Shown here: positions 3,785 through 48,290 of the stretch, one piece after another
Position numbering within the stretch: position 1 is the stretch's first letter
Layout of the letters: each line of letters begins with the position of its first letter
Assembly (NCBI RefSeq): GCF_036346595.1
Contig: NZ_CP107834.1
Coordinates: 2,542,001 to 2,606,000, forward strand
DNA length: 64,000 bases
DNA from: Streptomyces sp. NBC_00525
GTDB lineage: Bacteria; Actinomycetota; Actinomycetes; Streptomycetales; Streptomycetaceae
Reading direction: 5' to 3'
Notes under the pieces: model-generated
Told to the model about the DNA's origin: nothing
What the model saw: the letters and a program-made list of their open reading frames with translations, nothing else
The model's database searches: none
Made by a program: the position numbers and the translations under genes

Positions 3785-4651
3785 CTACCCCTTAATCAAC
3801 GGGCCCGAAGAGACACCTTCGAGTTTCCAAGTTCCGTGGACGATGCAGCGATCCTTTGGAATCTTATTGATGGTGACCTTTGAGTCGCTGCGGTCGAGGA
3901 GAAGTTGTAGCGCCGCCCCTTGTTCGTCATGCACATCGATGCGAGGCGAGTCGGACGAGAAGTGCTGAACCTTGAGGTGCTCTATGGCAGCGAACAGACC
4001 CATCGGAACTTCAACCAGCTCATAGATGAGGGTATCGGGCTCACTTTTGAGCCGGTATGCACGCAGTACGATCCAGCGCTGCACCGCCGCCAAAAACGCT
4101 TCGAGCAGAGTCATCGTACCGTCATACCGCATTCGGGCTGACCGGCAGTCCTGAATCCACGCCCCCTCACTCAGTTTTGAGATATGCAGCTCATGAAGCT
4201 TAATATCCTTCGCACTGGTGCTCTTGGCCGAGATTTGCTCGCCGTCTACCCGCAGATCCCAAAAGCGAGTCGTCTTGCTCGGCGCCATTTCGACAGCCAT
4301 ACCTTGAGCAGCACAGGAGGCTGCAAGTGCGTTCTCAAACGCCAACCGGTCAAGCGGCGTGGCATGGGTTCCGTGATGAGCCTGCAAGCGGGCTCGAAAT
4401 TCTGCAGAGAAAGAATTGGACACGAGGGCGCTTTGCGGATTGATCAGTTCGACCATGGGACGCAGCATGGAATCGACAATATTCCGAATCTGCCTGAGTT
4501 GCGCTTCGTCGCACTTTGCCACCAGCGCGTAGGCATCTCTGGCATCAGCCGACCCTTGGATTTGCGCTGCCACCTTTTGAACGATATGCGCTTGATGATC
4601 TTCGAGTTGCGCTATGCTTTCGATCAATTGGGTGCGGGCAGCACTATTCAT
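3785..4651 (-). CDS. Predicted type II restriction endonuclease
   Basis: A 288-residue soluble protein starting at ATG 4651-4649, 54 bases downstream of a C5 methyltransferase gene in the same direction. It is predicted to cut the site protected by that methyltransferase. The N-terminal third is helical. The middle contains WDLRVDGEQISAKSTS (about residues 131-146), where an acidic residue followed by a strand ending in S-A-K at 143 looks like a variant PD-(D/E)xK core. Further conserved-looking blocks are WIQDCRSARMRYD and LIYELVEVP. Assignment rests mainly on the operon with the methyltransferase. Codon use is less GC-rich than in neighbours, consistent with transfer. Recognition site not predictable. 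Confidence 0.7.
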   Translation of the reverse strand: MNSAARTQLIESIAQLEDHQAHIVQKVAAQIQGSADARDAYALVAKCDEAQLRQIRNIVDSMLRPMVELINPQSALVSNSFSAEFRARLQAHHGTHATPLDRLAFENALAASCAAQGMAVEMAPSKTTRFWDLRVDGEQISAKSTSAKDIKLHELHISKLSEGAWIQDCRSARMRYDGTMTLLEAFLAAVQRWIVLRAYRLKSEPDTLIYELVEVPMGLFAAIEHLKVQHFSSDSPRIDVHDEQGAALQLLLDRSDSKVTINKIPKDRCIVHGTWKLEGVSSGPLIKG

Positions 4652-4705
4652 CGCAGTCCTCTTAACGGGATCGATAAAAGCGAAACTTGTGAGTCATTCA
4701 GCAGG

Positions 4706-6004
4706 CTAGACGGCTACGAACTCTCGCGCCTGAGCAGCTTCGCCCGTGTCATTGCCGGAGAGGGAGTCATCAGCCTCTCGAATGTCCTCGGGGCGAAGAT
4801 GCGTGCCCGGCAGGATCATGTCGTCGACGCCAGGCCGCTGTCCTGTGAGGATCCAGTGGCATACCGAAGCAAGTTGGTAACTAATGAGAGGAGGTACCGC
4901 ATCACCAATATGCCTGTACTTATTACTAAGGCTCGCACCTTCGAACTTATAGGTTCGCGGAAAGCCGTTGAGGATTCCAAGCTCTCGAACCGAGCATAGG
5001 CGATCCTCTGCAGGGTGAGAGTAGCGGCCGTTCCCCACATGCGCGCATTCTCGCTTAATGGTGGGCGCCGGCCGGTCCCACGCCATACGCCCGTAGACGT
5101 CGGGAAAACTGCCGAAGTCCTTCTTGGCCACGGACTTAAGCATGGCAGGAGTCAGGTATTCAGTCCCGTCCGGAACACGCAAAAGGTCCCGCCAAGATCC
5201 TCCGTCATGAGGGATCTTTTGTAGGCGTCCCAGCGTTGCTGCAGAATGAAAGCTCGGAGACGCGTGTGCATCATCGTCCGGGTGCGCATCGCCCGCATTA
5301 ATCGATGGCAGGCCGTTGAGGGCGCGTCGCACACTCGTGGCCTCCTGAGTCAGCGTGCGACCGGCCCATGCATCCTCGAGGGTGCGTAGATCGAGACCCG
5401 GAGCAACTGCAATGACAAGGCTTCGCTCACGAACCTGCGGGAGGCCGAACCTGTTCAGAAAATGGTTCTGAGCGTGAACGGTATATCCGCGAGCCTCAAG
5501 GTCCTTTCTCAGGATCTCAAAGTGATGAGCCCAACGCCCTTGAAGGAGTTCCCTGGCGTTCTCCATCACAACGATTCGCGGCTGAAAGGCGTCAACGTAG
5601 ACAATAGTGCGTCCGACCAGACTGTTCCGCTTGTCGTCTTCCAGATGATTCTTCGCGTTCGTGCGCGAGAATCCTGTGCATGGAGGACAGGCGGACAGGA
5701 TATCGATCGGCGATGTCACACCCATGGATCGCATCAACGATTGAGGGTCCGCTGTCCCCAAATCGGTTTCGACTGGAGTGATCCCAATGTTGGCTTCATA
5801 GGTGGTATTACACGCCAGCGAGCCCTTTGGGCTACTTGGCTTTCCCAGCTGGGCGTCAGCCGCTCCGATCACCTCGAAGTGCGGATGAGCGTGAAATCCG
5901 AAGCTCATACCTCCGCCCCCGGAGAAGAGGTCCACGACCTGGAAGGTCGTTTTAGGGATAGCTGGTACGACACCGTCCTCAATGATGTTGATTCGACTAC
6001 CCAC
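4706..6004 (-). CDS. DNA (cytosine-5)-methyltransferase of a type II RM system
   Basis: A 432-residue enzyme that transfers a methyl group from SAM to C5 of cytosine. Motif I DLFSGGGG is at residues 25-32, motif IV CPPCTGFS with catalytic Cys109 at 106-113, motif VI ENAREL from 148, motif VIII QVRER at 190-194, and motif X IGDAVPPLIS near the C-terminus. The target-recognition region lies between about 220 and 360. It starts at GTG 6004-6002 behind a perfect AGGAGG. It is transcribed first, followed by the endonuclease, the safe order for establishing an RM system. GC is visibly lower than in the surrounding genome, suggesting acquisition with the adjacent integrase remnant. Confidence 0.93.
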   Translation of the reverse strand: MGSRINIIEDGVVPAIPKTTFQVVDLFSGGGGMSFGFHAHPHFEVIGAADAQLGKPSSPKGSLACNTTYEANIGITPVETDLGTADPQSLMRSMGVTSPIDILSACPPCTGFSRTNAKNHLEDDKRNSLVGRTIVYVDAFQPRIVVMENARELLQGRWAHHFEILRKDLEARGYTVHAQNHFLNRFGLPQVRERSLVIAVAPGLDLRTLEDAWAGRTLTQEATSVRRALNGLPSINAGDAHPDDDAHASPSFHSAATLGRLQKIPHDGGSWRDLLRVPDGTEYLTPAMLKSVAKKDFGSFPDVYGRMAWDRPAPTIKRECAHVGNGRYSHPAEDRLCSVRELGILNGFPRTYKFEGASLSNKYRHIGDAVPPLISYQLASVCHWILTGQRPGVDDMILPGTHLRPEDIREADDSLSGNDTGEAAQAREFVAV

Positions 6005-12199: not shown

Positions 12200-13102
12200 T
12201 TACATCTCCTCGGTGACGTACCGGCGGAGCCAGCTGCGGAACTCCGGCCCCAGATCTTCACGTTCGCACGCGAGTCTGACAATGGCACGCAGATAGTCGC
12301 TGCGGTCCCCGGTGTCGTAGCGGCGGCCCTTGAAGACGACGCCGTGCACGGGGCCGCCGGCCTTCTCGTCCTCGGCGAGCAGTTGCAGCGCGTCGGTGAG
12401 CTGGATCTCGTTGCCCCGGCCCGGTTCGGTCCGGCGCAGTATGCCGAAGACCGCCGGGTCCAGGACGTAGCGGCCGATCACGGCGAGGTTGCTGGGCGCG
12501 TCGGCGGGCTCGGGCTTCTCGACCAGGCCGGTGATCCGCACGACGTCCGCGTCGGGCGTGGGCTCCACGGCGGCGCAGCCGTACTGGCGGATCATCGCGG
12601 GCGGGACCTCCATCAGCGCGATGACACTGCCGCCCTCGCGCTCCTGGATCTCGGTCATCCGGGTCAGCAGGGGGTCGCGCGGGTCGATCAGGTCGTCGCC
12701 GAGGAGCACCGCGAAGGGCTCGTCCCCGACGTGCGGTTCGGCGCACAGGACGGCGTGCCCGAGGCCCTTGGGGTCGCCCTGGCGGACGTAGTGCATGGTG
12801 GCGAGGTCGGTGGACTCGCGGACCTTGCGCAGCCGGTCGGCGTCGCCCTTGCGGGTCAGCGCCGACTCCAGCTCGTAGTTCCGGTCGAAGTGGTCCTCCA
12901 GGGGGCGCTTGTTGCGTCCGGTGACCATGAGGACGTCGTGCAGCCCGGCGGCCACCGCTTCCTCGACCACGTACTGGATGGCAGGCTTGTCGACGACAGG
13001 CAGCATCTCCTTGGGGGTGGCCTTGGTGGCCGGAAGGAAGCGGGTTCCGAGGCCCGCCGCCGGGATGACGGCCTTGCTGATCCTGGGGTTCGACTGGGTC
13101 AT
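12200..13102 (-). CDS. galU: UTP-glucose-1-phosphate uridylyltransferase GalU
   Basis: A 300-residue nucleotidyltransferase that makes UDP-glucose from UTP and glucose-1-phosphate for cell-wall and storage glycans. The nucleotide-binding signature GLGTRFLPATKATPKEMLP is at the N-terminus, and GDPKGLGHAVLCAEPHVGDE and a C-terminal GRRYDTGDRSDYLRA follow. ATG 13102-13100 gives the standard family N-terminus, while a longer upstream frame to 13762 overlaps the divergent gene and is rejected. It is the first gene of the leftward galU-glp-moaC-mogA-GNAT-sepX series. Confidence 0.95.
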   Translation of the reverse strand: MTQSNPRISKAVIPAAGLGTRFLPATKATPKEMLPVVDKPAIQYVVEEAVAAGLHDVLMVTGRNKRPLEDHFDRNYELESALTRKGDADRLRKVRESTDLATMHYVRQGDPKGLGHAVLCAEPHVGDEPFAVLLGDDLIDPRDPLLTRMTEIQEREGGSVIALMEVPPAMIRQYGCAAVEPTPDADVVRITGLVEKPEPADAPSNLAVIGRYVLDPAVFGILRRTEPGRGNEIQLTDALQLLAEDEKAGGPVHGVVFKGRRYDTGDRSDYLRAIVRLACEREDLGPEFRSWLRRYVTEEM

Positions 13103-13148
13103 GCGCTGAACCCTAGCGGTGCGGCATGGGCGGAAGATGAGCTTCCGG

Positions 13149-13177
13149 TTAACTTTGTCCTCATTTATTCCTATACG
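13149..13177 (+). promoter_or_regulatory. Candidate promoter of the 5-FTHF cyclo-ligase gene
   Basis: TTAACT at 13149-13154 and TATACG at 13172-13177 are separated by 17 bases in an AT-rich pocket between galU and the divergent cyclo-ligase gene. They match vegetative -35 and -10 hexamers reasonably well. The transcript would begin about 13184, close to the TTG start at 13198. Confidence 0.45.
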
Positions 13178-13197
13178 AGAGCCCGGCAGGTACCCCG

Positions 13198-13794
13198 TTG
13201 AACACCGACATGTCCGCAAAGGCGCTCCTGCGGCGCGAACTGCTCGCCGCCCGCCGTCTCCTGACGGACCAGGACGTCGAGCGGTACGCCGGAGTGCTCG
13301 CCCGCCACGCGCTGGAACTCCCGGAGCTGGCCGGGGCCCGTACCGTCGCCGCGTACGTTTCGGTGGGCCGCGAACCGGGCACCCGCGCGCTGCTGGACGC
13401 GCTGCGCGCGCGGGGTGTCCGGGTGCTGCTGCCGGTGCTGCTGGCCGACAACGACCTGGACTGGGCGGCGTACGAGGGGGCGGAGGGGCTCGCGAAGGCG
13501 GGGCGCGGGCTGCTCGAACCCACCGGTGAGCGACTGGGCCCCGACGCGGTGCTCGATGCGGACGCGGTGCTGCTGCCCGGCCTCGCGGTGGACGCGCGCG
13601 GCATGCGACTCGGGCGCGGCGGCGGCAGCTACGACCGGGTGCTGGCGCGCCTGACGGCCGCCGGGGCCGCCCCCGCGCTGATCGTGCTGCTGTACGCGAA
13701 CGAGGTGGCCGCGCGGGTCCCGGCGGAGCCGCACGACTTCCCCGTTCACGCGGTGGTGACACCCGAGGGCCCCCGGCGCTTCGGCGTGAACTGA
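13198..13794 (+). CDS. 5-formyltetrahydrofolate cyclo-ligase
   Basis: A 198-residue enzyme that uses ATP to convert 5-formyl-THF to 5,10-methenyl-THF in folate recycling. The N-terminal KALLRRELLAARRLL helix, the AAYVSVGREPGTRALLDAL segment and the ATP/substrate signature MRLGRGGGSYDRVLARL (about residue 140) identify the family. TTG 13198 has GGCAGG at seven bases, while the in-frame ATG at 13210 has no ribosome-binding site, so TTG is preferred. It diverges from galU and ends in a terminator stem that overlaps its last codons. Confidence 0.92.
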   Translation: MNTDMSAKALLRRELLAARRLLTDQDVERYAGVLARHALELPELAGARTVAAYVSVGREPGTRALLDALRARGVRVLLPVLLADNDLDWAAYEGAEGLAKAGRGLLEPTGERLGPDAVLDADAVLLPGLAVDARGMRLGRGGGSYDRVLARLTAAGAAPALIVLLYANEVAARVPAEPHDFPVHAVVTPEGPRRFGVN

Positions 13795-13813
13795 AGCACC
13801 GGGGGCCCTCGGG
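13762..13813. terminator. GC-rich hairpin at the end of the cyclo-ligase gene
   Basis: cccgagggcccccgg at 13762-13776 pairs perfectly with 13799-13813 across a 22-base loop. The left arm lies inside the last codons of the gene. It sits between convergent genes and could end transcripts from both sides. There is no T-run, as is common in Streptomyces. Confidence 0.65.
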
Positions 13814-13843
13814 GGCGCCTGCTACGGCCTGACGGCGGACCCG

Positions 13844-16597
13844 CTACGGCTTGAGGGTCAGCGTGTCCGTCGTCGTCCCGGCCACGGCGTTCGTGCCGTA
13901 GGCCCAGGGCAGCAGTTCACCGTTGACCCACTTGTCGGTCTGGTCGGTGTAGTGCGCGCTGAACGCGTGCCCGGAGGCGCCGGTGAGGTTGATCCAGCGG
14001 GACTTGTCCCAGTCCCCCACGTTGACGACCATCCGCATCGACGGCACCCAGACGACCTCGTAGCCGCCGGCCGCGTTCCAGCCGGTGGCGTTGACCGCGG
14101 CCTCGCCGCCGCCGAGCTCCCAGGGGCCGCGGTTGAGGAGCCGCTGGATGATTCCGGGGCCCTCGGTGCCCAGCGTCTGGTTCTTGAGGGTCAGCCGGTG
14201 CAGCCGGCCCCAGTTCCAGGTGGTGATGTCCTTGCCGAGCTTGGCGGTCAGCTCCCAGCGGGCGTCCTCCATGGCACGGGCGAACAGCTCGTCGCGGGTC
14301 TCGGTCGCCTTGTCCTTACGGCTCCTGGGCGACTTCCACCACTCGCTGTCCGGCTTGTCCATGAGGTTCGCGACGACCTGGTACCAGCGGTCGCCGCCGT
14401 CCGGCTGGGCGGAGTCCGGGGAGCGCCGGCCGCACTCGCGCACCAGGCGTTCCTGCTCGTCCACCGGGCCGGAGCTCTTGGGGGGACGAACGTTCAGGCA
14501 CTCGCCCTCGACGCGCAGCTCCTTGGGCAGCTTGTCGCCGAAGGCCAGCTTGAGGATGTTGCGCCAGACGCCGTTGAAGTAGGCGGCGGCGGCCGAGTCG
14601 GCCTCCTGGGTGTAGTCCCAGCCCTCCAGCAGCTTCTGCGCCTCGCGGACGTCCTTGTCGGCGATGTTGATCTTGAGCAGTTCGGGCACCAGAAGCGCGG
14701 CGATCTCGCTGGTGTTGTCCATCTGCATCTTCTGCATGTCTTCGGTCGAGATCTTGCCGCCGCCCTTGAGCTTCGACTGGATGAGGTCGTTGATCCGCTG
14801 GCTGCGGCTGCCGTAGCCCCAGTCCTTCGTCAGCAGGTACGGGTACTCGTCCTCGTCGATCACGGCCTGGTTGGCGGTGACGATGTAGCCGCGCTCCGGG
14901 TTGTACTCGTAGGGCAGCTCGTCGAACGGGATCGGGTCCTTCTTCCAGCCGTACTCCGACGACCAGCCGGGGCTGGGCGTGGTGCCGTCGCCCTTCTCGC
15001 GGACCGGGATCTTGCCGGGGGCCTGGTAGCCGATGTTGCCCTTGGTGTCGGCGTAGATCAGGTTCTGGGAGGGAACCTCGAAGTGCCGGGCGGCCTGGCG
15101 GAAGCTCGTGAAGTCCTTGGCGCGGTTCAGCTCGAAGACGGCGTCCATGGAGTGGCCGGGCTCCAGCGCGGTCCACTTCAGGGCGACGGCGTAACCGTCC
15201 GCGCGGTCCGGGGCGGAGTTGGTGACGGGCGCCTTCTGGCCGACCTTCTCCAGCTCGCCGCTGCGGTCGGAGACCAGCGGGCCGTTGTTGGTCTCGCGGA
15301 CGGTGATGTGCCGGTCCTTGCCGCCGGCGACCTTGATGGTCTCCTCGCGGACGGTGAAGGGCTTCGTCCTGCCGTCGTACAGGTAGCCGTCGGTGGTGAC
15401 CTTCTCCAGGAACAGGTCGGTGACGTCGGCGCCGAGGTTGGTGAAGCCCCAGGCGATGTCCTGGTTGTGGCCGATGATCACACCGGGCATGCCGGAGAAG
15501 GTGTAGCCGGCGGTGTCGTACTTGCAGGTTTCGGAGACCTGCCGGCAGTGAAGGCCCATCTGGTACCAGAGGGACGGCAGCATCGGCGCCAGGTGCGGGT
15601 CGTTGGCCAGCAGCGGCTTGCCCGTGGTCGTGTACTTGCCGGCGACCACCCAGGAGTTCGAGCCGATGCCGTTGCCGTTCGGGCCGAGCAGCGCGGGGAT
15701 CTCGTCGAGGGTGTCGGAGAGTGCGCCGAGCTGGGTGCTGAGGCCCTGGGTCGCGCCCGCCACGGTGTTCGGGTCGACGGTGCCGGTGTCGGTCGCCTTC
15801 GGGTCGAACTTGCCGGTGAGCGAGGAGACCGCGCCCTCGGTGACGATCGGCTCGTGCTTGTCGTACGGGTAATCGGGGTAGAGCTGCTTGATCTGGTCGG
15901 CGTCGAGCCGGCTGGTCATCAGCGAGCGGTCGATCTCGTCCTGCATGTTGCCGCGCAGGTCCCAGGCCATCGCCTTCAGCCACGCGACCGAGTCGACCGG
16001 GGTCCACTCCGAGGGCTTGTAGTCGTTGGTGAGGCCGAGCGCGGCGTACTCGACGGAGATGCCCTTGCCGTCGCGCCCCTTGAGGTAGGCGTTGACGCCG
16101 TCCGCGTACGCCTGGAGGTTCTTCTTGGTCTCCTTGGACAGGACGGTGTCGTACTCCTCCTGCGCGACCTTGCGCCAGCCGAGCGTGCGCAGGAAGGAGT
16201 CCGTCTCGACCTGGCCGGAACCGAACATCTCGGAGAGCCGGCCGGCCGTCAGGTGGCGGCGGACGTCCATCTCCCAGAAGCGGTCCTGCGCCTGGACGAA
16301 GCCCTGGGCGCGGAACAGGTCGGTGTCGGAGTCCGCGTAGATCTGCGGGATGCCGTAGCCGTCGCGCTTGACCTCGACGTTGCCGTCGAGCCCGTCGATG
16401 CGGATGGTCCCGCTGGTCTGCGGGTACGAGGCACGCACGGTGGAAACGGACCAGTACGCTCCGTAACCGATGCCCGCGATGAGCGCCAGCACCAGGACGA
16501 TCACGAGGAGGCGGGCGCGTCGCCCCTTCTTCTTCTTGCGCGGCCCGCTACCGGCGGTACCGGTGGCTCCGGAAGTGGCGGTTGTTGTGGCGGGCAT
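13844..16597 (-). CDS. Penicillin acylase family (Ntn-hydrolase) membrane-anchored enzyme
   Basis: A 917-residue protein. After a basic N-terminus (GPRKKKKGRRARLLV) comes one membrane anchor (VIVLVLALIAGIGYGAYW), then the acylase fold. The N-terminal domain includes QDRFWEMDVRRHLTAGRLSE. The autocatalytic site is GIGSNSWVVAG near residue 330, where the Ser becomes the N-terminal nucleophile after cleavage. FTNLGADVTDLFLEK, a calcium-site-like segment, and the C-terminal block GPWELGGGEAAVNATGW follow. Family members cleave amide bonds of beta-lactams, acyl-homoserine lactones or other acylated compounds. The substrate here cannot be deduced. ATG 16597 has AAGGAC at seven bases. It diverges from the antiporter gene. 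Confidence 0.9.
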   Translation of the reverse strand: MPATTTATSGATGTAGSGPRKKKKGRRARLLVIVLVLALIAGIGYGAYWSVSTVRASYPQTSGTIRIDGLDGNVEVKRDGYGIPQIYADSDTDLFRAQGFVQAQDRFWEMDVRRHLTAGRLSEMFGSGQVETDSFLRTLGWRKVAQEEYDTVLSKETKKNLQAYADGVNAYLKGRDGKGISVEYAALGLTNDYKPSEWTPVDSVAWLKAMAWDLRGNMQDEIDRSLMTSRLDADQIKQLYPDYPYDKHEPIVTEGAVSSLTGKFDPKATDTGTVDPNTVAGATQGLSTQLGALSDTLDEIPALLGPNGNGIGSNSWVVAGKYTTTGKPLLANDPHLAPMLPSLWYQMGLHCRQVSETCKYDTAGYTFSGMPGVIIGHNQDIAWGFTNLGADVTDLFLEKVTTDGYLYDGRTKPFTVREETIKVAGGKDRHITVRETNNGPLVSDRSGELEKVGQKAPVTNSAPDRADGYAVALKWTALEPGHSMDAVFELNRAKDFTSFRQAARHFEVPSQNLIYADTKGNIGYQAPGKIPVREKGDGTTPSPGWSSEYGWKKDPIPFDELPYEYNPERGYIVTANQAVIDEDEYPYLLTKDWGYGSRSQRINDLIQSKLKGGGKISTEDMQKMQMDNTSEIAALLVPELLKINIADKDVREAQKLLEGWDYTQEADSAAAAYFNGVWRNILKLAFGDKLPKELRVEGECLNVRPPKSSGPVDEQERLVRECGRRSPDSAQPDGGDRWYQVVANLMDKPDSEWWKSPRSRKDKATETRDELFARAMEDARWELTAKLGKDITTWNWGRLHRLTLKNQTLGTEGPGIIQRLLNRGPWELGGGEAAVNATGWNAAGGYEVVWVPSMRMVVNVGDWDKSRWINLTGASGHAFSAHYTDQTDKWVNGELLPWAYGTNAVAGTTTDTLTLKP

Positions 16598-40592: not shown

Positions 40593-41858
40593 CTAACGGC
40601 GGTTCTCTTCGACGCTGTCGTTGGAAACCGACGTGTCGTTGGAAACCGACGTGTCGTTGGGGACCGATGTGTCGTCGGCGGCCTCCGGTGCGGCCTTGCT
40701 CGGCTCCCAGCCGATCCGGGTGCTGCACACCGCCACGACGAGCGCGGAGAGCGAGACGAGCGCCAGCCCCCACACGAGGCTGCTCGCATCCGCGACGAAG
40801 CCGATGACCGGCGGTCCGGCCAGCAGCCCGGTCGTGCCCATGGCGGCCACCAGAGGCAGAGTGTTCGTGCCCTCCCGCGCGGCCGCCACATAGACACAGG
40901 GGGTGACCGCGGCGACGCCCAGACCGACGCATGCGAACCCGATGAGCGCGGGCACCACTCCCCCGGCCATCAGCGCGCAGGCGAGCCCCGAGCCGGCCAG
41001 CACGCTGCCCACGAGGACGACACGGCCGTCGCCCCAGCGACTGCGCCAGCCGTCCGCGAAGAGCCGGGCGAGGAGCATCATGCCCGACACCACAGCGATG
41101 CCCAGGGGTGCGATCTGCCCCGACGCGCCGGCGACGTCCTTCATGTACAGGGTCGACCAGTCGTTCATCGAGCCCTCGGTGACGGTGCCGAAGACCATGG
41201 CGCAGCACATCCACAGGGCCACGCGACTGGGCATTCTCCAAGCGGTACGAGGCTTCTTCCTCGGCCCGTCGGCCGACTTGTCGACCGGCCTGTCGTCGGC
41301 CAGCAGACCGCCCTGCGCACCTGCGGCGGTGAGCACGAGAAGGACTGCCGCGACGCAGAAGTGCGCCATGACGGACGAGGTCGCCGTGAGCACTGCCGAG
41401 GCGAGGATCGCCGCGAGCAGGGAGCCCGCACTGAACGTGGCGTGCAGCCTCGCCATGGTGGTGCGTTCGTACCGTGCCTCAAGGGCCGCACCCTGGGCGT
41501 TCATAGCGGTGTTCAGGCATCCGACGAACACACCGTCCACACACAGCACCAGGAGTGCCGTCGGATAGTTCGGCGCTGCGGCCAGGGCGACGAGCACCCC
41601 GGCGAGGGCAAGCGTCGACCAGAGCGAGAGCAGCCGTGACCCCACCCGTCCGACCAGGTACATCACTATGGGGAACGACACGGACGCGCCGACGCCGGCC
41701 GCCATCAGCAGGATGCCCACCTGGGCCGGTGTCAGGCCGAGGTCCGCCTTGATGGCCGGGATGCGCGCGGCCCAGGTGGCGTACTGGAAGCCGAGGGAGC
41801 AGAAGAGGGCTCCCGTGGCCAACTGGCCTCGGCGGAAGGGAGTGAGGGCAAGGGACAC
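40593..41858 (-). CDS. MFS exporter of the oxygenase-decarboxylase cassette
   Basis: A 421-residue twelve-helix MFS protein of the group containing bacterial FucP/YbjJ-like members. Features are QLATGALFCSLGFQYATWAA in TM1, SLWSTLALAGVLVALAAAP and LCVDGVFVGCLNTAMNAQGA. GTG 41858 lies four bases after the stop of the GNAT gene, so it is the last gene of a five-gene leftward operon and probably exports the pathway product. The C-terminus carries a NDTSVS tandem repeat encoded by an 18-bp DNA repeat, which suggests a non-essential tail. Confidence 0.85.
   Translation of the reverse strand: MSLALTPFRRGQLATGALFCSLGFQYATWAARIPAIKADLGLTPAQVGILLMAAGVGASVSFPIVMYLVGRVGSRLLSLWSTLALAGVLVALAAAPNYPTALLVLCVDGVFVGCLNTAMNAQGAALEARYERTTMARLHATFSAGSLLAAILASAVLTATSSVMAHFCVAAVLLVLTAAGAQGGLLADDRPVDKSADGPRKKPRTAWRMPSRVALWMCCAMVFGTVTEGSMNDWSTLYMKDVAGASGQIAPLGIAVVSGMMLLARLFADGWRSRWGDGRVVLVGSVLAGSGLACALMAGGVVPALIGFACVGLGVAAVTPCVYVAAAREGTNTLPLVAAMGTTGLLAGPPVIGFVADASSLVWGLALVSLSALVVAVCSTRIGWEPSKAAPEAADDTSVPNDTSVSNDTSVSNDSVEENRR
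40618..40671. repeat. 18-bp tandem repeat, three copies, inside the MFS gene
   Basis: The unit tcgttggaaaccgacgtg is at 40618-40635 and again, identical, at 40636-40653, and a third copy with three substitutions is at 40654-40671. It is in frame and encodes the C-terminal NDTSVS repeats of the MFS protein, so copy-number change would not disrupt the reading frame. Confidence 0.9.
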
Positions 41859-41862
41859 GTGG

Positions 41863-42399
41863 TCAGCTCGATTCGTGTGGCGGGGAGGGACGGGGACCGT
41901 GGACGGGTACGGGCGCGGACATGTAGACGGCGGTGGAGCCGTAGCCGCCCGCGGTGACCGGTCGGGGATGCGCGGTGAAGCCGCAGGACGACCAGAAGCC
42001 CTCGCTGTCGCCGACCGCGACCAGTGACAGTTGCTCGTATCCATGCGTTCGCGCTGTCCCCGCGACGTGCTCCAGCAGCCGCCGTGCCATCCCTCCGCCG
42101 CGGAACGGTGGAGCGACGACGAGGTCGTGCAGGTGAAGGTTGCGCGAGACGAAGGCGGTCGTCTCGGACTGCCGCAGATCCGGGTAGCGGCCGGCCGGGT
42201 AGGGAAGGGCCAGCAGGTAGCCGACGGCCCTGCCGTCGGCCTCCAGTACGAAGCAGGTCTCGGGAGAGACCTCCGCCCGGGATCTCAGCGCCTCCCGGCC
42301 CTCCGAGAGGCCCAGCTCCCCGTATGCGGCGGCCTCCATGTCCGCGATGGCGTCCCAGTCCCGGTCTCCTGCCGGACGTATCAGCACATCGCCGTTCAC
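41863..42399 (-). CDS. GNAT N-acetyltransferase of the cassette
   Basis: A 178-residue GNAT. The N-terminal LIRPAGDRDWDAIADMEAAA, the core with CFVLEADGRAVGYLLALPYP, and the acetyl-CoA loop LHDLVVAPPFRGGGMARRLL are visible, with a C-terminal GFWSSCGFTAH. GTG 42399 overlaps the stop of the decarboxylase gene (GTGA). Acting after a decarboxylase that yields an amine, and just before an exporter, it could acetylate the product either as a biosynthetic step or for self-protection. That is inference. Confidence 0.82.
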   Translation of the reverse strand: MNGDVLIRPAGDRDWDAIADMEAAAYGELGLSEGREALRSRAEVSPETCFVLEADGRAVGYLLALPYPAGRYPDLRQSETTAFVSRNLHLHDLVVAPPFRGGGMARRLLEHVAGTARTHGYEQLSLVAVGDSEGFWSSCGFTAHPRPVTAGGYGSTAVYMSAPVPVHGPRPSPPHESS

Positions 42400-43571
42400 C
42401 GGGTGCCGCCTGTGCAGACGCGGGGCAGCGGTGCGAAGCCGTTGAAGCCCTGGGTCATGTAGCTGACCGCGTACGCACCGCAGGAGACGATCTGTACCGG
42501 GTCTCCCGAGGCCAGGTCCTCCGGCACCTCCACAAGGCCGTGCGCGGGGGAATAGGCGTCGTCACTGTCGCAGGTGGGCCCCGCCACGACCGCGGAGACC
42601 GTTCGTCCCGCGGTATGTGAGGGGAAGACGAGGCGGTACTGCAGCATGTCCATCTCGTACAGGCCGTTGAACTTCCCGACGCCCAGGTACAGCCACCGCT
42701 GCCGGACACCATCGGGGAGGCAGCGTGCGGTCATCCGGACGACGTGGGTGTGAATCGTGCCGTGGTCGGCCACCAGGTAGCGCCCCGGCTCCATGACGAT
42801 CCCGAGGTGTTCGCCATGGGCCCGGCGCAACGCCGCCATTCCCTCCCGGAGGACGAGGAAGATCTTGTCGATCGGCGGGCGCAGCGGGTTGCCGTGCCGG
42901 TCGAGGTAGTCGAGCGCGGGAAGCCCGCCGCCGAGGTTCACGTGGTCGAGGACGATCCCGCGCGCCGCGAGGGCCGCCAGCACTGCGTCCAACCGTTCGA
43001 AGGCCGCGAGCCAGGCGTCGGGGTTCATCTGCTGGGAACCCACGTGCACCGACAGGCCGGACGGGGCCAGACCGCCGGCCTCGGCCGCTGTCAGGATGCG
43101 CACGGCGTCGTCGGGGGAGCAGCCGAACTTGTGCTTCAGCCCCCACAGGGCTCCCTCGCCCGTGGTCGCCAGGCGGCAGTAGACCCGTGCTCCGGGAGCG
43201 TGGCGCACGAGGGCCGATACGTCCTCCTGGCTGTCCGTGGCGAAGTCCCGTACACCCAGGCGGTAGGCGGCGGCGATGTCCTGGTCCGACTTGACGGTGT
43301 TGCCGTAGTGCGTGCGGGAGAGCACGGCTCCGGCACGCAGCGCGTGCTCCAGTTCGGGCATGCTCGCCGCGTCGATCCCGGCTCCCAGCCCGATCAAGCA
43401 GTCCAGGACCTCGTCGACCGGGCACGCCTTCATGGCGAAGCGGACGTCGACACCGGGTACTTCGCGGCGCAGTGTCTCGTACCGCTCGCGCACGCCGTCC
43501 AGGTCGAAGACGATCCGGTCCTCTCCGGCCTGCCCTTCCCCGACAGGCGGCAGGCCGGGCTCGCCGGTCAT
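42396..43571 (-). CDS. PLP-dependent decarboxylase, ornithine/DAP type (fold III)
   Basis: A 391-residue enzyme of the ornithine/lysine/diaminopimelate decarboxylase family. The PLP Lys is in VRFAMKACPVDEVL (near residue 43). HVGSQQMNPDAW, LDHVNLGGGLPALDYL, IVMEPGRYLVADHG and the active-site Cys in AGPTCDSDDAYSP follow in the expected order. It would remove the alpha-carboxyl of a basic or related amino acid to give an amine. The AMKAC variation around the Lys differs from the usual AVKxN, so the substrate may be unusual. ATG 43571 overlaps the stop of the DUF6271 gene (ATGA). Confidence 0.88.
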   Translation of the reverse strand: MTGEPGLPPVGEGQAGEDRIVFDLDGVRERYETLRREVPGVDVRFAMKACPVDEVLDCLIGLGAGIDAASMPELEHALRAGAVLSRTHYGNTVKSDQDIAAAYRLGVRDFATDSQEDVSALVRHAPGARVYCRLATTGEGALWGLKHKFGCSPDDAVRILTAAEAGGLAPSGLSVHVGSQQMNPDAWLAAFERLDAVLAALAARGIVLDHVNLGGGLPALDYLDRHGNPLRPPIDKIFLVLREGMAALRRAHGEHLGIVMEPGRYLVADHGTIHTHVVRMTARCLPDGVRQRWLYLGVGKFNGLYEMDMLQYRLVFPSHTAGRTVSAVVAGPTCDSDDAYSPAHGLVEVPEDLASGDPVQIVSCGAYAVSYMTQGFNGFAPLPRVCTGGTR

Positions 43572-44902
43572 CGGACCGCCCGCCGGGGCCTGGTCGCCGA
43601 GGCGTCGACAGGGGTGTTGCGCGCGGCGCGGACCAGTTCCCCCCACGCCTCGGTGAGGACGGCGAAGTCACCGATGTCCTCGCGGGCCTCTTCCAGGAGG
43701 CTCTCCCGCCGGGGCAGCAGCAGATCGGCGAATTCGGCGTACCTGCCGCCCAGCCGTCGGTAGGCGGAGTCGACCCGGTCGAGCCGCTCCCGGTTCTCCG
43801 CCTGGTCCAGCCCCATGCTCTGCCGGGCGAACCCCGCGACGAGGGGGCCCAGAACCTGCCCGCGCTCGTCGAGCAGCGACGGACCGGTTTCAGCCAGCCG
43901 GTCGTAGAGGGAATTGAAGTAGAGCATGGACAACAGGAACTTCACGAACCGCGTCTGATAGGCGACGAACCCGGCGTCGGTCCTGCGCTCGGCAGTGTGG
44001 AAATTGACGATGTCGCGGTTGTGCAGCACGCCGGGCAGTCCGGCACTCCGCACCAGGTGGATCAGAAAGTAGTCGCTGCCGATGGTGTCGGTGGCGGGAG
44101 GCAGCGGCACCCGGGCGTGCACGTCGTGGAAGGCGATGTTGCACATGTCCACCCGCATCGGGTCGACCAGGCCCAGTGTCGAGTTATCCCGCTCGAACGT
44201 CTTCGTTCCCGCGCCCCGGAAGGACTCCGTCACGAGCTGCCGTTTGCGCTCGGCCGGCCACTCCATCGGCGCCCACAGGCTGACCACGTCGTAGTAGACC
44301 TCGGGGTCGATACGCGCGACCTCGTCGATGTCCACGGACGGTTCGCCCACGAACGAGCCGCCCACCATCGCCACACGGCGGCCCGCCTGCTCCTCCGTCA
44401 GCACGGTCTCCGAGACGGCGTCCGCCGCATCCGCCGCGCGTCTGCCGAGGGAGGCGAGCTCGTGGTGGATGGGGAAGATCTCCCTGCCGTCCGGGTCTCT
44501 CTGGTAGTGGCTGTCGGAGTCCCGCCGGTGCACGGAAGAGCATCCGAGTGCGAAGGCGACGAGAAAGGCCCGGTTGGTGCAGGCGCCGTACGACAGTGCC
44601 TCCGGGAGCATCAGGTCGAGGAGCAGGCGGGGCTTCGCCACGTCGGCGCACCCTGTGACCCGCTCCAGGAAGTGCCGCTGCCCGGCCTCACTCAGGTGGT
44701 GCGTGACGATGCGGGGGTGCGCGGGCTGAGTACGCAGGACCTCGGCGTGCTCGGCGTACTGCGGAGGGGAACAGGTATCGAGCACGAGGAGATGTACCTC
44801 GACGTCGAAGTGGTCGACGGCGTAGGCCGCCTCCCGGACGAGGGCCGCGATCGTCGCGGGGCACGTCCGATTGGTCGGAAGGGCTAGGCAGACACGCCGC
44901 AT
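43568..44902 (-). CDS. DUF6271 protein, glycosyltransferase-like
   Basis: A 444-residue soluble protein. From memory it is in the uncharacterised DUF6271 family. It starts RRVCLALPTNRTCPATIAAL and has VHLLVLDTC followed by SSVHRRDSDSHYQ, where D-S-D sits like the DxD metal motif of GT-A glycosyltransferases, then TIGSDYFLIHLV and NRDIVNFHTAERR. The fold assignment is inference from this pattern. ATG 44902 overlaps the end of the PhyH gene by 19 bases and has GAGGTGG upstream. It lies in the middle of the cassette, so it may attach or process a sugar-like unit on the amine or amino acid intermediate. Confidence 0.7.
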   Translation of the reverse strand: MRRVCLALPTNRTCPATIAALVREAAYAVDHFDVEVHLLVLDTCSPPQYAEHAEVLRTQPAHPRIVTHHLSEAGQRHFLERVTGCADVAKPRLLLDLMLPEALSYGACTNRAFLVAFALGCSSVHRRDSDSHYQRDPDGREIFPIHHELASLGRRAADAADAVSETVLTEEQAGRRVAMVGGSFVGEPSVDIDEVARIDPEVYYDVVSLWAPMEWPAERKRQLVTESFRGAGTKTFERDNSTLGLVDPMRVDMCNIAFHDVHARVPLPPATDTIGSDYFLIHLVRSAGLPGVLHNRDIVNFHTAERRTDAGFVAYQTRFVKFLLSMLYFNSLYDRLAETGPSLLDERGQVLGPLVAGFARQSMGLDQAENRERLDRVDSAYRRLGGRYAEFADLLLPRRESLLEEAREDIGDFAVLTEAWGELVRAARNTPVDASATRPRRAVR

Positions 44903-45948
44903 ATCGCCACCTCGGTCGGTTCGTCGGTGCTTTCGACCTTCCAAGGCTTCAGACCGAGGAGCTTCTCACCGAGTTCGTTCAGCGCGGCCGGCCCGTATCG
45001 CTCGCTCTCCGGCCTCACCGCGTCGCCGAGCAGGGTGCCGTTCCACGTGGGCGTGGTGACATCGCGCCAGGAAGCGACGCGCGAGCGACGCAGTTCCGTG
45101 TGACTGTCGAGGGCGGGCATCATCGACAGGTACTGCACGGCCCGGACACCCTCCTGGGAGAGGTTGGGTCCGACGCCATGGGCCAGGTGACCGTTGAATA
45201 TCAACAGGTCACCGGCCTCCAGGACCGGCCGGACCACGGGAAGTTCGCTTCGGTCGATCGCCGGCCGGATCGGGTCGCGGTCGTCCGGCTGGAGCGCCGC
45301 CCAGCGGTCGAACGTGCGGAACAGCTCGGGGCAGCACTGGAAGCCACCGTGCTCCTCCGCGGTGTCGTTGAGCGCGATGATGCCCTGGACGCGCTGCGGG
45401 GGGATTCCCAGGGTGGTGTCCACGTCCCAGTGCAGTTCGATGTCGAAGCCGCGCTCACGGGGCTCGATCAGGGCCCGGTCACGGGTCTTGATGTTCGGCG
45501 GGTTCAGGTTCAGCCGGTCCAGCGTCACCCACAACTCCTCGCAGTCCCACACATCGACGAACGCGTCGTACACGCGCTGTGTCTGCCGGCTGTCCCAGAG
45601 GAGTTGGTGGTGGTACGCCTCGACGAAGCCGTAGATGTGCAGTTCCCGGTCGAGTTCGGAGCGGTACTGCCGCTCGTCGTACCAGCCTTCCGGACGGTCG
45701 GGGTCGAGGCCCTGGAAGTCCCAGGCGAAGTCCAGCAGACGCCGGGCCGCATCCGGAGAAATCGCCTGCTTGACCACGACGTAGCCATACGTCTGCCATG
45801 CCTCGAAGTCTGCCTCGGACAGCACCCGGAGAGGACGGGACTTCTTCACATCCCGCAACCGTACGGGCGTCAGATACGTCTCGCCGTCGGAGCTTAAGTA
45901 GGGGAGATCCGAGGCAGCCCGGTAGAGATAGTGATCAGCCGTTGGCAT
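44884..45948 (-). CDS. Phytanoyl-CoA dioxygenase family Fe(II)/2-oxoglutarate oxygenase
   Basis: A 354-residue oxygenase, probably hydroxylating an amino acid or similar small molecule using Fe(II), 2-oxoglutarate and oxygen. The iron ligands H-x-D are in ELHWDVDTTLG (about residue 190), the distal His in LLIFNGHLAHGVGPN and the 2OG-binding Arg in GVRAVQYLS. The N-terminus (YGYVVVKQAISPDAARRLLD) is typical of PhyH proteins. ATG 45948 has GGAG at seven bases. It is the first gene of the five-gene operon and faces the GH3 gene across a 485-base region. Confidence 0.88.
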   Translation of the reverse strand: MPTADHYLYRAASDLPYLSSDGETYLTPVRLRDVKKSRPLRVLSEADFEAWQTYGYVVVKQAISPDAARRLLDFAWDFQGLDPDRPEGWYDERQYRSELDRELHIYGFVEAYHHQLLWDSRQTQRVYDAFVDVWDCEELWVTLDRLNLNPPNIKTRDRALIEPRERGFDIELHWDVDTTLGIPPQRVQGIIALNDTAEEHGGFQCCPELFRTFDRWAALQPDDRDPIRPAIDRSELPVVRPVLEAGDLLIFNGHLAHGVGPNLSQEGVRAVQYLSMMPALDSHTELRRSRVASWRDVTTPTWNGTLLGDAVRPESERYGPAALNELGEKLLGLKPWKVESTDEPTEVAICGVSA

Positions 45949-46123: not shown

Positions 46124-46139
46124 GATGGACTAGACCAAT
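46124..46139. promoter_or_regulatory. DasR-like operator 1
   Basis: The core TGGACTAGACCA at 46126-46137 differs at one position from TGGTCTAGACCA, the core of the DasR-responsive element. It is 176 bases upstream of the PhyH start and shares the decamer AGACCAATAG with operator 2. Confidence 0.5.
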
Positions 46140-46348: not shown

Positions 46349-46364
46349 ATTGGTGCAGACCAAT
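46349..46364. promoter_or_regulatory. DasR-like operator 2
   Basis: ATTGGT-GCAG-ACCAAT is a near-perfect palindrome whose core TGGTGCAGACCA matches the relaxed DasR motif TGGTNNAGACCA. It lies 70 bases upstream of the GH3 ATG, a typical repressor position. DasR represses GlcNAc and chitin genes, and a beta-N-acetylhexosaminidase is a fitting target. Confidence 0.6.
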
Positions 46365-46433: not shown

Positions 46434-47951
46434 ATGTCCGTCAGAGGTAATACGGAGTTGCGGCAACTGGCACTCTCGGTCCTGCAACCGGGATTCGTGG
46501 GGACCACTCCGCCGGACTGGTTGCTGCGAGCCGTCCAGGACGGCTTGGGTTCCGTTGTGCTCTTCTCCCGCAACATCCTCTCGATCGAACAGGTCGCCCG
46601 GTTGACCGAGCGCCTGCGGGCCGAGAACCCCGACCTGATCGTAGCGATCGACGAGGAGTCCGGCGACGTCACACGGATCGAATCCGCCACCGGTTCGTCC
46701 CGCCCCGGGAACTTCGCTCTCGGATACGTCGACGACCCCGAGCTGACCTCATCGGTCGCCGCGGATCTCGGCCGGCAGCTGCGTGCCGCTGGGGTGAGCC
46801 TCAATTACGGGCCCAGCGTCGACGTCAACTCGAACCCGGACAATCCGATCATCGGGGTGCGGTCCTTCGGCGTCGACCCGAAGGTGGTGTGCCGCCACGC
46901 CGGTGCCTGGGTACGCGGCCTGCAGTCGTCCGGGGTCGCCGCCTGCGCCAAGCACTTCCCCGGCCACGGCGACGTGGCCGTCGACTCCCACCACGGGCTG
47001 CCCGTCTACGACACGACCCGTGAGGAACTGGAGGCCCAGGCGCTTCCCCCGTTCCGCGCGGCGCTGGACGCCGGTGCGCGTGCGGTCATGAGCGCGCACC
47101 TTCTCGTGCCCGCCTGCGACCCCGCGGTCCCGGCCACGCTGAGTTCACGCATCCTCGGCGACCTGCTGCGCGGTGAGCTGGGATTCGACGGCCTGATCAT
47201 CACCGACGCCATCGAGATGGGTGCGGTCGCCGACCGTTACGGCGTCACCGGTGCCGCGGTCGCGGCCGTGACGGCCGGCGCCGATGCCATCTGCGTCGGC
47301 GGGGAGAACGCCGACGAGGGTATCGCCACCGGCATCGTCGACGCGCTGGCGCAAGCCGTGCTCGCCGGGGACCTGCCCGTCGAACGTCTCACCGATGCCG
47401 CCCGCCGCGTCCGTGAATTCGCCGCATGGTCCTCCCGCCTCGCCCCCGCCGCTTCGGACGGCTCCGTTCCGGACGGCTCCGTCGGCCTCTCGGCCGCCCG
47501 GCGGGCCATCCGCGTGCGAGGAGCCACGCACGGCGTCCTGCCGGTGTCCGCCTCACCGCATGTCGTCGAGCTGTCGCCCGCCACCAACCTCGCCATCGGC
47601 AAGGAGACCCCCTGGGGCGTGGCCGCTTCCCTGCTCCAGCACATCCCCAGCGCGACCTCGGTCCGGCTGGGGCAGGAGAACCTGGACCCGCCGGCCGCCA
47701 CCGCGGACCTCTGCGGACTGGACGGGGCACGGGGACGCCCGCTCGTCGTCGTCGTCCGTGACGCCGCCCGTCATCGCTGGATGACCCACGCCCTGGAGGA
47801 GATCACCGGAGCCAGGCCCGACGCGATCGTCGTGGAGATGGGCCTTCCCGGACAGCGCTGGGGAGCGACGACCCTGGACACCCACGGAGCCTCCACCGCT
47901 TCCGGGGCCGCCGTGGCCGAGCTGTTGGCAGGTGCACCTGCAAGGCCGTAG
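46434..47951 (+). CDS. Glycoside hydrolase family 3 beta-N-acetylhexosaminidase (NagZ-like)
   Basis: A 505-residue cytoplasmic-type GH3 enzyme. The barrel contains GSVVLFSRNILSIEQVARLT and the GH3 signature KHFPGHGDVAVDSHHGLPVY, whose Asp/His pair is characteristic of NagZ-type enzymes. The nucleophile Asp is in LIITDAIEMGAV. A C-terminal alpha/beta domain follows. It would remove terminal GlcNAc from chito-oligosaccharides or muropeptides. ATG 46434 has AAAGGT at eight bases and no signal peptide. The DasR-like site upstream suggests induction by GlcNAc derivatives. Confidence 0.88.
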   Translation: MSVRGNTELRQLALSVLQPGFVGTTPPDWLLRAVQDGLGSVVLFSRNILSIEQVARLTERLRAENPDLIVAIDEESGDVTRIESATGSSRPGNFALGYVDDPELTSSVAADLGRQLRAAGVSLNYGPSVDVNSNPDNPIIGVRSFGVDPKVVCRHAGAWVRGLQSSGVAACAKHFPGHGDVAVDSHHGLPVYDTTREELEAQALPPFRAALDAGARAVMSAHLLVPACDPAVPATLSSRILGDLLRGELGFDGLIITDAIEMGAVADRYGVTGAAVAAVTAGADAICVGGENADEGIATGIVDALAQAVLAGDLPVERLTDAARRVREFAAWSSRLAPAASDGSVPDGSVGLSAARRAIRVRGATHGVLPVSASPHVVELSPATNLAIGKETPWGVAASLLQHIPSATSVRLGQENLDPPAATADLCGLDGARGRPLVVVVRDAARHRWMTHALEEITGARPDAIVVEMGLPGQRWGATTLDTHGASTASGAAVAELLAGAPARP

Positions 47952-48199: not shown

Positions 48200-48272
48200 G
48201 CCCTCGTAGCTCAGGGGATAGAGCACCGCTCTCCTAAAGCGGGTGTCGCAGGTTCGAATCCTGCCGGGGGCA
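48200..48272 (+). tRNA. tRNA-Arg (anticodon CCT)
   Basis: 73 bases with a full cloverleaf. The acceptor stem is GCCCTCG/CGGGGGC, the D-stem GCTC/GAGC, the anticodon stem CCGCT/AGCGG with loop CTCCTAA (anticodon CCT, codon AGG), and the T-arm GCAGG-TTCGAAT-CCTGC. CCA is not encoded. Gene fragments and repeats follow it for 2 kb, as often seen beside tRNA integration hotspots. Confidence 0.97.
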
Positions 48273-48290
48273 CAGAGAAACACCAGGTCA

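Follow-up and report, generated by a model that had tools for sequence, protein, structure and literature searches.

Five leftward genes of Streptomyces sp. NBC_00525 form a conserved operon that probably makes and exports a small modified amine. They lie in a stretch of 64,000 nucleotides (contig NZ_CP107834.1, positions 2,542,001 to 2,606,000), called the window here, and encode a PhyH-family Fe(II)/2-oxoglutarate (2OG) oxygenase, a DUF6271 protein, a fold-III pyridoxal 5'-phosphate (PLP) decarboxylase, a GNAT acetyltransferase, and an MFS transporter. The favored reading, to which we give a probability of roughly 0.5, is that this cassette specifies a chitin-responsive pathway, which hydroxylates, glycosylates, decarboxylates, N-acetylates, and exports an amino-acid-derived metabolite, and that it is a biosynthesis-and-export operon of the N-acetylglucosamine (GlcNAc)/chitin regulon of DasR. 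The strongest new facts are sites resembling the DasR operator (dre), a linkage to a glycoside hydrolase family 3 (GH3) gene and to das operons, and a sister cluster with a swapped finishing module. No paper with DUF6271, nor with DasR and phytanoyl-CoA dioxygenase together, was found in the open-access papers searched; the pathway is real, conserved, and apparently undescribed.

Conservation of the Operon

One genome per species was scanned for close relatives of DUF6271, yielding 63 loci from Streptomyces, Kitasatospora, Actinacidiphila, Streptantibioticus, Actinospica, Actinokineospora, and Kibdelosporangium, with two loci from one unplaced actinomycete metagenome-assembled genome. (L-numbers denote loci, and G-numbers the genomes of a sampled same-genus set, n=199.) All five genes are present, in the same order and on one strand, in 56 of the 63 loci, and the cassette is therefore not a product of chance. 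Five of the other loci (L025, L048, L051, L056, and L061) are cut by contig ends, while L042 is without the decarboxylase and L022 has a broken MFS gene. In L022 (S. acidipaludis, 13087-15316) a short piece of the split MFS gene is in place and the remainder is inverted downstream, a rearranged cassette. Across the 56 complete loci, mean identity to the window is 74% for PhyH, 65% for DUF6271, 67% for the decarboxylase, 55% for GNAT, and 67% for MFS.

An earlier note on this DNA, made from the sequence alone, had described the five leftward genes with overlaps of 19, 4, and 4 bases (PhyH/DUF6271, DUF6271/decarboxylase, and decarboxylase/GNAT) and a gap of 4 bases between GNAT and MFS. Coordinates and Pfam matches bear this out (Table 1), and the search for the same gene order in other actinomycetes places a conserved operon in several genera. 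The note had also named outcomes that would count against it, namely an order unique to this genome, a known catabolic operon, or a DUF6271 protein without a glycosyltransferase-like or enzymatic fold; none of these came true. It was right about the five genes and too narrow in extent, leaving outside its coordinates a frequent sixth gene, GH3, and the GH3-PhyH regulatory region. Thus it missed the regulation, with the dre sites, GH3, and the das-operon linkage, as well as the carrier-protein sister cluster.

The five genes are translationally coupled, and the coupling is itself conserved. Among loci in which the gene finder called both genes, with the species-scan loci and additional same-genus loci pooled, 53 of 75 keep the 19-base PhyH/DUF6271 overlap, and 51 of 70 keep the 4-base overlap of DUF6271 with the decarboxylase gene.

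In the same-genus set, 62 of 199 genomes have a full-length or nearly full-length orthologue of DUF6271 (>= 547 bits), and the same 62 have one of PhyH (>= 541 bits); the two genes are adjacent on one strand in every one of them. A distant DUF6271 occurs alone in 3 more genomes and a distant PhyH alone in 3 others. A phylum-wide draw of 396 genomes gave 5 positives, all Streptomyces, yet loci from other genera are known from the species scan. The decarboxylase gene lies directly beside DUF6271 on the same contig in 42 of the 62 genomes, including G077, where the match is partial (residues 15-289). In G073 and G138 DUF6271 is split by a contig break and the decarboxylase follows its second piece; 17 genomes have no decarboxylase, and in G088 (locus L067) it is truncated to about 109 residues, with the other cassette genes seen there still present.

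Table 1. Features of the cassette and its divergent region in the window
Feature	Position	Strand	Details
PhyH-family Fe(II)/2OG oxygenase	44884..45948	-	354 aa; PF05721, 43.2 bits
DUF6271 protein	43568..44902	-	444 aa; PF19787, 730 bits (curated cut-off 25)
Fold-III PLP decarboxylase	42396..43571	-	391 aa; Orn_Arg_deC_N PF02784, 136 bits
GNAT N-acetyltransferase	41863..42399	-	178 aa, GTG start; Acetyltransf_1 PF00583, 52 bits
MFS transporter, presumed exporter	40593..41858	-	421 aa, GTG start; MFS_1 PF07690, 87 bits
GH3 beta-N-acetylglucosaminidase, divergent partner gene	46434..47951	+	505 aa, start chosen at ATG 46434; PF00933
dre-like DasR site TGGACTAGACCA	46126..46137		1 mismatch; ~180 bp upstream of PhyH
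dre-like DasR site TGGTGCAGACCA	46351..46362		2 mismatches; ~70 bp upstream of GH3

The PhyH, DUF6271, Orn_Arg_deC_N, Acetyltransf_1, and MFS_1 matches all pass the curated Pfam cut-offs; the C-terminal domain of the decarboxylase (PF00278) falls under its cut-off (19.9 vs 23 bits).

Candidate DasR Operators

The dre consensus, as given in PMC4398421, is A(G/C)TGGTCTAGACCA(G/C)T. Sites with at most 2 mismatches are found no more than 700 bp upstream of PhyH in 59 of 76 loci, and 43 of the 76 have two or more; this set includes 3 sister-cluster loci (discussed later), and some of its members have less than 700 bp upstream. The expectation from the rest of the same loci is 0.033 sites per 700 bp. 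At no more than 1 mismatch, a site is present in 56 of the 74 loci with at least 390 bp available upstream, whereas 296 permuted palindromes averaged 0.14 loci and peaked at 14 in two cases.

Fifteen of the 74 loci have no upstream site within 2 mismatches (L018, L040, L042, L044, L045, L046, L048, L049, L050, L058, L069, L070, L072, L073, and L074). L018 offers just 402 bp of upstream sequence. L046 and L058 have dre-like sites at the head of a das-type operon, L048 has them both in the interval that separates a GntR gene from a divergent gene for a binding protein and behind that GntR gene, and in L044 and L050 they lie about 0.85-1.5 kb upstream. In L042 and L069-L074, a codirectional GH3 precedes the cassette, and the retrieved sequence stops short of the operon head.

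The 7.1-Mb genome of the strain itself contains 29 palindromic sites with no more than 1 mismatch; as a control, the reversed pattern finds 13 per strand. Three exact copies of the 12-mer TGGTCTAGTCCA are present, one at the cassette, one in the das/nag region, and one upstream of a gene for a carbohydrate-binding module (CBM)/beta-helix protein. The das/nag locus contains DasR-, DasA-, DasB-, DasC-, and DasD-like genes together with NagB, the das names being assigned by gene order and similarity. Judged by sequence, then, a dre-type operator stands upstream of the cassette in a genome that has dasR. The sites are candidate DasR operators, to which DasR would bind, making expression dependent on GlcNAc. 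The words "phytanoyl" and "decarboxylase" are absent from the main text of three DasR/chitin papers (PMC12370203, PMC4398421, and PMC12161575).

GH3 and the das Operons

The nearest solved structure to the window GH3 is a GH3 beta-N-acetylglucosaminidase (PDB 6k5j, 7.9e-74). The protein is 52% identical to the DasD of its own genome, and both score below the 207-bit cut-off of the NCBIfam beta-N-acetylhexosaminidase model NF003740 (188.6 bits for GH3, 185 for DasD). According to PMC12370203, DasD is an intracellular beta-N-acetylglucosaminidase. GH3 accompanies the cassette in 44 of the 63 loci, in 39 of them on the strand opposite to PhyH and in five (L042, L046, L047, L058, and L060) immediately upstream of PhyH and codirectional with it. 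A GH3 on the PhyH strand is also seen in the additional same-genus loci L069, L070, L072, L073, L074, and L081. Among the 62 genomes, GH3 is within 3 kb of PhyH in 30 (E <= 1e-150), divergent in 14 and on the same strand in 16.

The locus thus resembles the Streptomyces DasR regulon and its dasABCD system for chitobiose uptake and hydrolysis, with which it shares dre-like operators and a GH3 beta-N-acetylglucosaminidase. In one clade the likeness goes further: a das-type operon runs straight on into the cassette, with a DasR paralogue alongside. In L046, L047, L058, and L060, the genes ahead of GH3 encode a binding protein, two permeases, and a regulator in divergent orientation, and Pfam assigns GntR/UTRA, SBP, and BPD_transp domains in L046. 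DasR was searched for in 10 genomes, all with PhyH-DUF6271. In each of the five with a das-type cassette (G016, G020, G111, G146, and G181), two DasR proteins are present, the canonical one (93-94%) and a second paralogue (74-75%) encoded next to the cassette. In these five genomes, the 9-kb stretches surrounding canonical dasR yielded neither DasA nor DasD. A GH3 tree (56 rows) groups the 10 rows of das-type cassette enzymes, including L048, in one clade with the 5 DasD rows. The 41 window-type rows (including L042 and L081) lie across a 100/100 split from it; the window GH3, falling outside the DasD clade, is not placed as a DasD orthologue. The cassette is therefore associated with GH3 enzymes of two lineages, and this favors a functional connection with GlcNAc.

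Behind MFS, the das-type loci L046, L058, L069, L070, L072, and L073 carry a convergent group of genes of about 340, 356, and 323-334 aa, with an additional gene of 1088 aa in L046 and L058. By eye, this group recalls SbnA/SbnB-like diaminopropionate synthesis, a TauD-like oxygenase, and a nonribosomal peptide synthetase (NRPS).

The dre-like sites, GH3, and the physical continuity with das-type uptake operons would also fit a cassette that belongs to chitin or aminosugar catabolism or detoxification, modifying and expelling a harmful by-product of chitin breakdown. We consider this distinctly unlikely, as the sister cluster, with its carrier protein and condensation domain, looks biosynthetic. 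Another idea is that the product inhibits beta-N-acetylglucosaminidases and that the GH3 paralogue is the producer's resistant spare DasD. The genome does have a separate das locus with DasD in addition to the paralogue beside the cassette, and enzymes of two lineages accompany the cassette. Yet the GH3 of the das-type clade simply belongs to the uptake operon as its DasD-type enzyme, 19 of 63 loci yielded no GH3, and relatives of the gene are also found where there is no cassette, leaving this idea very improbable. Nagstatin and similar inhibitors of these enzymes were considered as models for the product; nothing ties them to the cluster.

The PhyH-DUF6271 Core

As the earlier note had it, the first gene encodes a PhyH-type Fe(II)/2OG oxygenase with its H-x-D and Arg. 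In addition to the PF05721 match, residues H173, D175, H257, and R269, presumably the metal and 2OG ligands, are invariant in 76 of 76 aligned rows, which gives the protein both the HxD...H facial triad and the 2OG-binding Arg. A C-terminal tail resembling C-x-x-S-A was considered as a functional element and rejected because reading-frame overlap explains it: the tail goes with an overlap between the PhyH stop and the DUF6271 start and is otherwise absent. The exceptions are L016 and L031, where the gene finder apparently called the DUF6271 start late.

The predicted structure of DUF6271 has a mean confidence (pLDDT) of 95.3. A Foldseek search with this model gave 35 matches at E <= 0.001, which by title are GT75 mutases, glycosyltransferases, or sugar synthases, apart from two titled just "a Mycobacterial protein"; their GT-A class is in part our presumption. 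A DSD motif (residues 128-130), which the earlier note had thought GT-A-like, is invariant in 79 members; H294, D191, and D277 are invariant residues as well. As modeled, then, DUF6271 has a GT-A fold with a DxD-type motif and is nearest to the GT75 nucleoside diphosphate (NDP)-pyranose mutases, such as MtdL and the plant UAM/RGP proteins. The likeness is one of fold, but not of sequence profile. None of the 79 members has a match to Pfam RGP (PF03214), hhalign against 32 bacterial RGPs gives a probability of 1.7% and nothing significant, and comparison with PDB sequences, both single and as a profile, gives nothing meaningful. By eye, the DUF6271 position that may correspond to the autoglycosylated Arg (Arg159 of MtdL) holds no invariant Arg.

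The fold raises the possibility that DUF6271 is an NDP-sugar mutase rather than a transferase, making an NDP-furanose or another rearranged sugar nucleotide, with PhyH, the decarboxylase, and GNAT then acting on a sugar-derived amine. The missing RGP relation in Pfam and hhalign argues against this, as does the finding that none of the five cassette proteins matches another glycosyltransferase family able to use such a donor; we regard a mutase as unlikely, though worth keeping in mind. A transferase would have a parallel in the modification of collagen hydroxylysine by LH3 and COLGALT1, in which an Fe/2OG hydroxylase is followed by a GT-A transferase. The two enzymes are weak Foldseek matches to DUF6271 (ranks 40 and 38, respectively); unlike the cassette, the collagen system is eukaryotic and has a protein substrate, and it is without demonstrated sequence relation.

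Selenocysteine in DUF6271, considered since an in-frame TGA had been reported in six genomes, was rejected: the six fetched loci have no TGA before the frame's own end. Distant homologues of DUF6271 (26-29%) are found in L077 (3357-11825; G158) and L078 (G127), in another possible biosynthetic cluster with DegT-like aminotransferase, kinase/phosphatase, two glycosyltransferase-like, LOG-like, and asparagine synthase genes, all named by eye except the asparagine synthase of L077. A further distant branch (L075 and L076, from G037 and G156) lies beside an OpuA-type betaine/choline ABC transporter, again named by eye.

The Finishing Enzymes and a Sister Cluster

In all 17 genomes without the decarboxylase, the genes after PhyH encode DUF6271, a condensation-domain protein, and a different MFS transporter. 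This sister cluster also contains a divergent gene for an aminoacyl-tRNA-synthetase-like protein, together with genes for a carrier-sized protein and a phosphopantetheinyl-transferase-like protein, which were assigned in 15 genomes by BLAST to the L079 proteins, with the 2 further genomes examined separately. The synthetase-like protein matches the amino acid:[carrier protein] ligase Bll0957 in PDB (E 1.3e-21). Pfam matches are weak for the carrier (15.7 bits in L080 and 13.8 in L079, cut-off 20.8) and for the phosphopantetheinyl transferase (27.1 bits in L080 against a cut-off of 25, and below the cut-off in L079). In three of the 15 loci the gene finder left DUF6271 unlabeled, and the genome search for DUF6271 places it there. 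A dre-like site with at most 1 mismatch lies in the divergent region of 15 of 15 sister loci, and L079 and L080 have sites too. The sister-cluster PhyH proteins form one clade (support 100/99).

Since the sister cluster keeps both PhyH and DUF6271 while the finishing module differs, these two proteins are the core. What varies would be the finishing of an amine, either by decarboxylation and acetylation or by transfer of an aminoacyl group from a carrier protein. Because the two cluster types share core and dre but not the N-acylating enzyme, N-acylation would be placed downstream of the core. With its ligase homologue and its carrier-like, phosphopantetheinyl-transferase-like, and condensation-domain genes, the sister cluster resembles the amino acid:[carrier protein] ligase pathways represented by Bradyrhizobium Bll0957. 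The window cassette, unlike these, has no ligase/carrier set, and the decarboxylase and GNAT stand in its place. By Pfam, none of the five cassette genes has a condensation, adenylation, or carrier domain, in agreement with the earlier view that no NRPS type fits.

The call of a fold-III PLP decarboxylase is upheld by the PF02784 match and by the PLP lysine (Lys48) and a GPTCDSDD motif, of which the Lys and the Cys-Asp are kept. The nearest solved structures are lysine/ornithine decarboxylases (best, 2plj at 125 bits), compared with 65 bits for the best diaminopimelate decarboxylase in PDB. The cassette enzyme is homologous to 2plj and 5gjm over most of its length and has the PLP Lys and the Cys-Asp in common with them. 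In such enzymes the Asp of a DDG motif holds the distal amine of the substrate. The cassette decarboxylase lacks this Asp; in the alignment to 2plj, the columns aligned to DDG hold just A/G/S and then A/C/T/V in 71 rows. By this enzymology, the substrate would be a basic amino acid that has lost its plain distal amine.

A decarboxylase-GNAT pair (63-64% and 45-49% identity, respectively) is present without PhyH/DUF6271 in 5 other loci (L121-L125), near a gene of 446-449 aa. The one such gene scanned belongs to the glutamine-synthetase family (Gln-synt_C, 233 bits); these pairs appear to form a separate small cluster, and a gene resembling beta-ketoacyl-acyl carrier protein synthase III (KAS III) is also found in L122 (by Pfam) and L125 (by eye). 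Since the pair exists without the core, and since the sister cluster swaps in a condensation-domain gene, GNAT is better read as a tailoring, biosynthetic enzyme, and the suggestion that GNAT and the exporter provide self-resistance is weakened.

The same pairs, with the 17 genomes that have PhyH-DUF6271 and no decarboxylase-GNAT, could mean that two independent modules share a promoter, with PhyH-DUF6271 making one molecule and decarboxylase-GNAT another, for example an acetylated polyamine. Given the overlapping starts and the constant order in 56 of 63 loci, this seems the least credible of the explanations. The pathway proposed earlier, hydroxylation, decarboxylation, modification, acetylation, and export, survives as a coupled operon, but not in that order of steps: the decarboxylase is absent in L042 and truncated in L067, which suits a late or optional decarboxylation.

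Proposed Pathway

In the favored reading, GlcNAc-derived signals would relieve DasR from the dre sites, and the divergent promoter region would then switch on both GH3 and the five-gene operon. PhyH would hydroxylate an amino-acid-like substrate. DUF6271, as a putative metal-dependent GT-A enzyme with a GT75-like fold, would transfer (or rearrange) a sugar from a nucleotide sugar, the acceptor most likely being the new hydroxyl. The decarboxylase, of the lysine/ornithine type without the distal-amine Asp, would remove the carboxylate of the modified amino acid. GNAT would then acetylate an amine, and MFS would export the product.

Several points weigh against this reading. The loci are related by descent, so the counts are not independent. 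L040, L045, and L049 have no dre close upstream. GH3 lies beside PhyH in just 30 of the 62 genomes, and the 19 loci in which it was not found, some of them cut by contig ends, include L002 and L003, the nearest relatives of the window PhyH. Comparable GH3 matches (602-603 bits, 63-64%) occur in G044 and G060 without a full-length DUF6271, and away from the cassette in G081, G093, and G163. The nearest folds to DUF6271 are mutases rather than acceptor-using transferases, without a sequence-profile tie to GT75, and the PhyH structure model (pLDDT 52) is too poor for a fold search. Finally, the decarboxylase-GNAT pair exists apart from the core, and the two pairs might act on separate substrates.

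Other Features of the Window

The five cassette proteins have no PADLOC anti-phage defense match at E <= 0.001. A promoter and terminator scan was uninformative, with 0 promoter-like sites and 1 terminator-like site vs 2.1 in shuffles. A tRNA-Arg (CCT) gene at 48200-48273, just 3' of GH3, is a possible integration site near the cassette. The lowest GC of any 2-kb step (0.566, in a window mostly at 0.65-0.75) is found at 4001-6000, possibly acquired DNA.

Implications

Roughly one in three same-genus genomes in the sample (62 of 199) carries the PhyH-DUF6271 core. Because the dre sites predict the inducer, GlcNAc or chitin, this orphan pathway is directly testable. The GT75-like fold also provides a mechanistic hypothesis for a domain of unknown function. 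A bolder and quite improbable extension would make PhyH-DUF6271 the mark of an unrecognized family of actinomycete natural-product pathways that chitin triggers and that take two forms, one with decarboxylase and acetyltransferase and the other with carrier protein and condensation domain. DUF6271 would be a new branch of the GT75 fold whose substrate is a free hydroxylated amino acid; the exported glycosylated amine might hamper the use of chitobiose by competitors, with the GH3 paralogue a protected copy of the target. Cluster finders look for core enzymes of a kind that the PhyH-DUF6271 class lacks, and thus, mining for regulator sites may be the way to find it.

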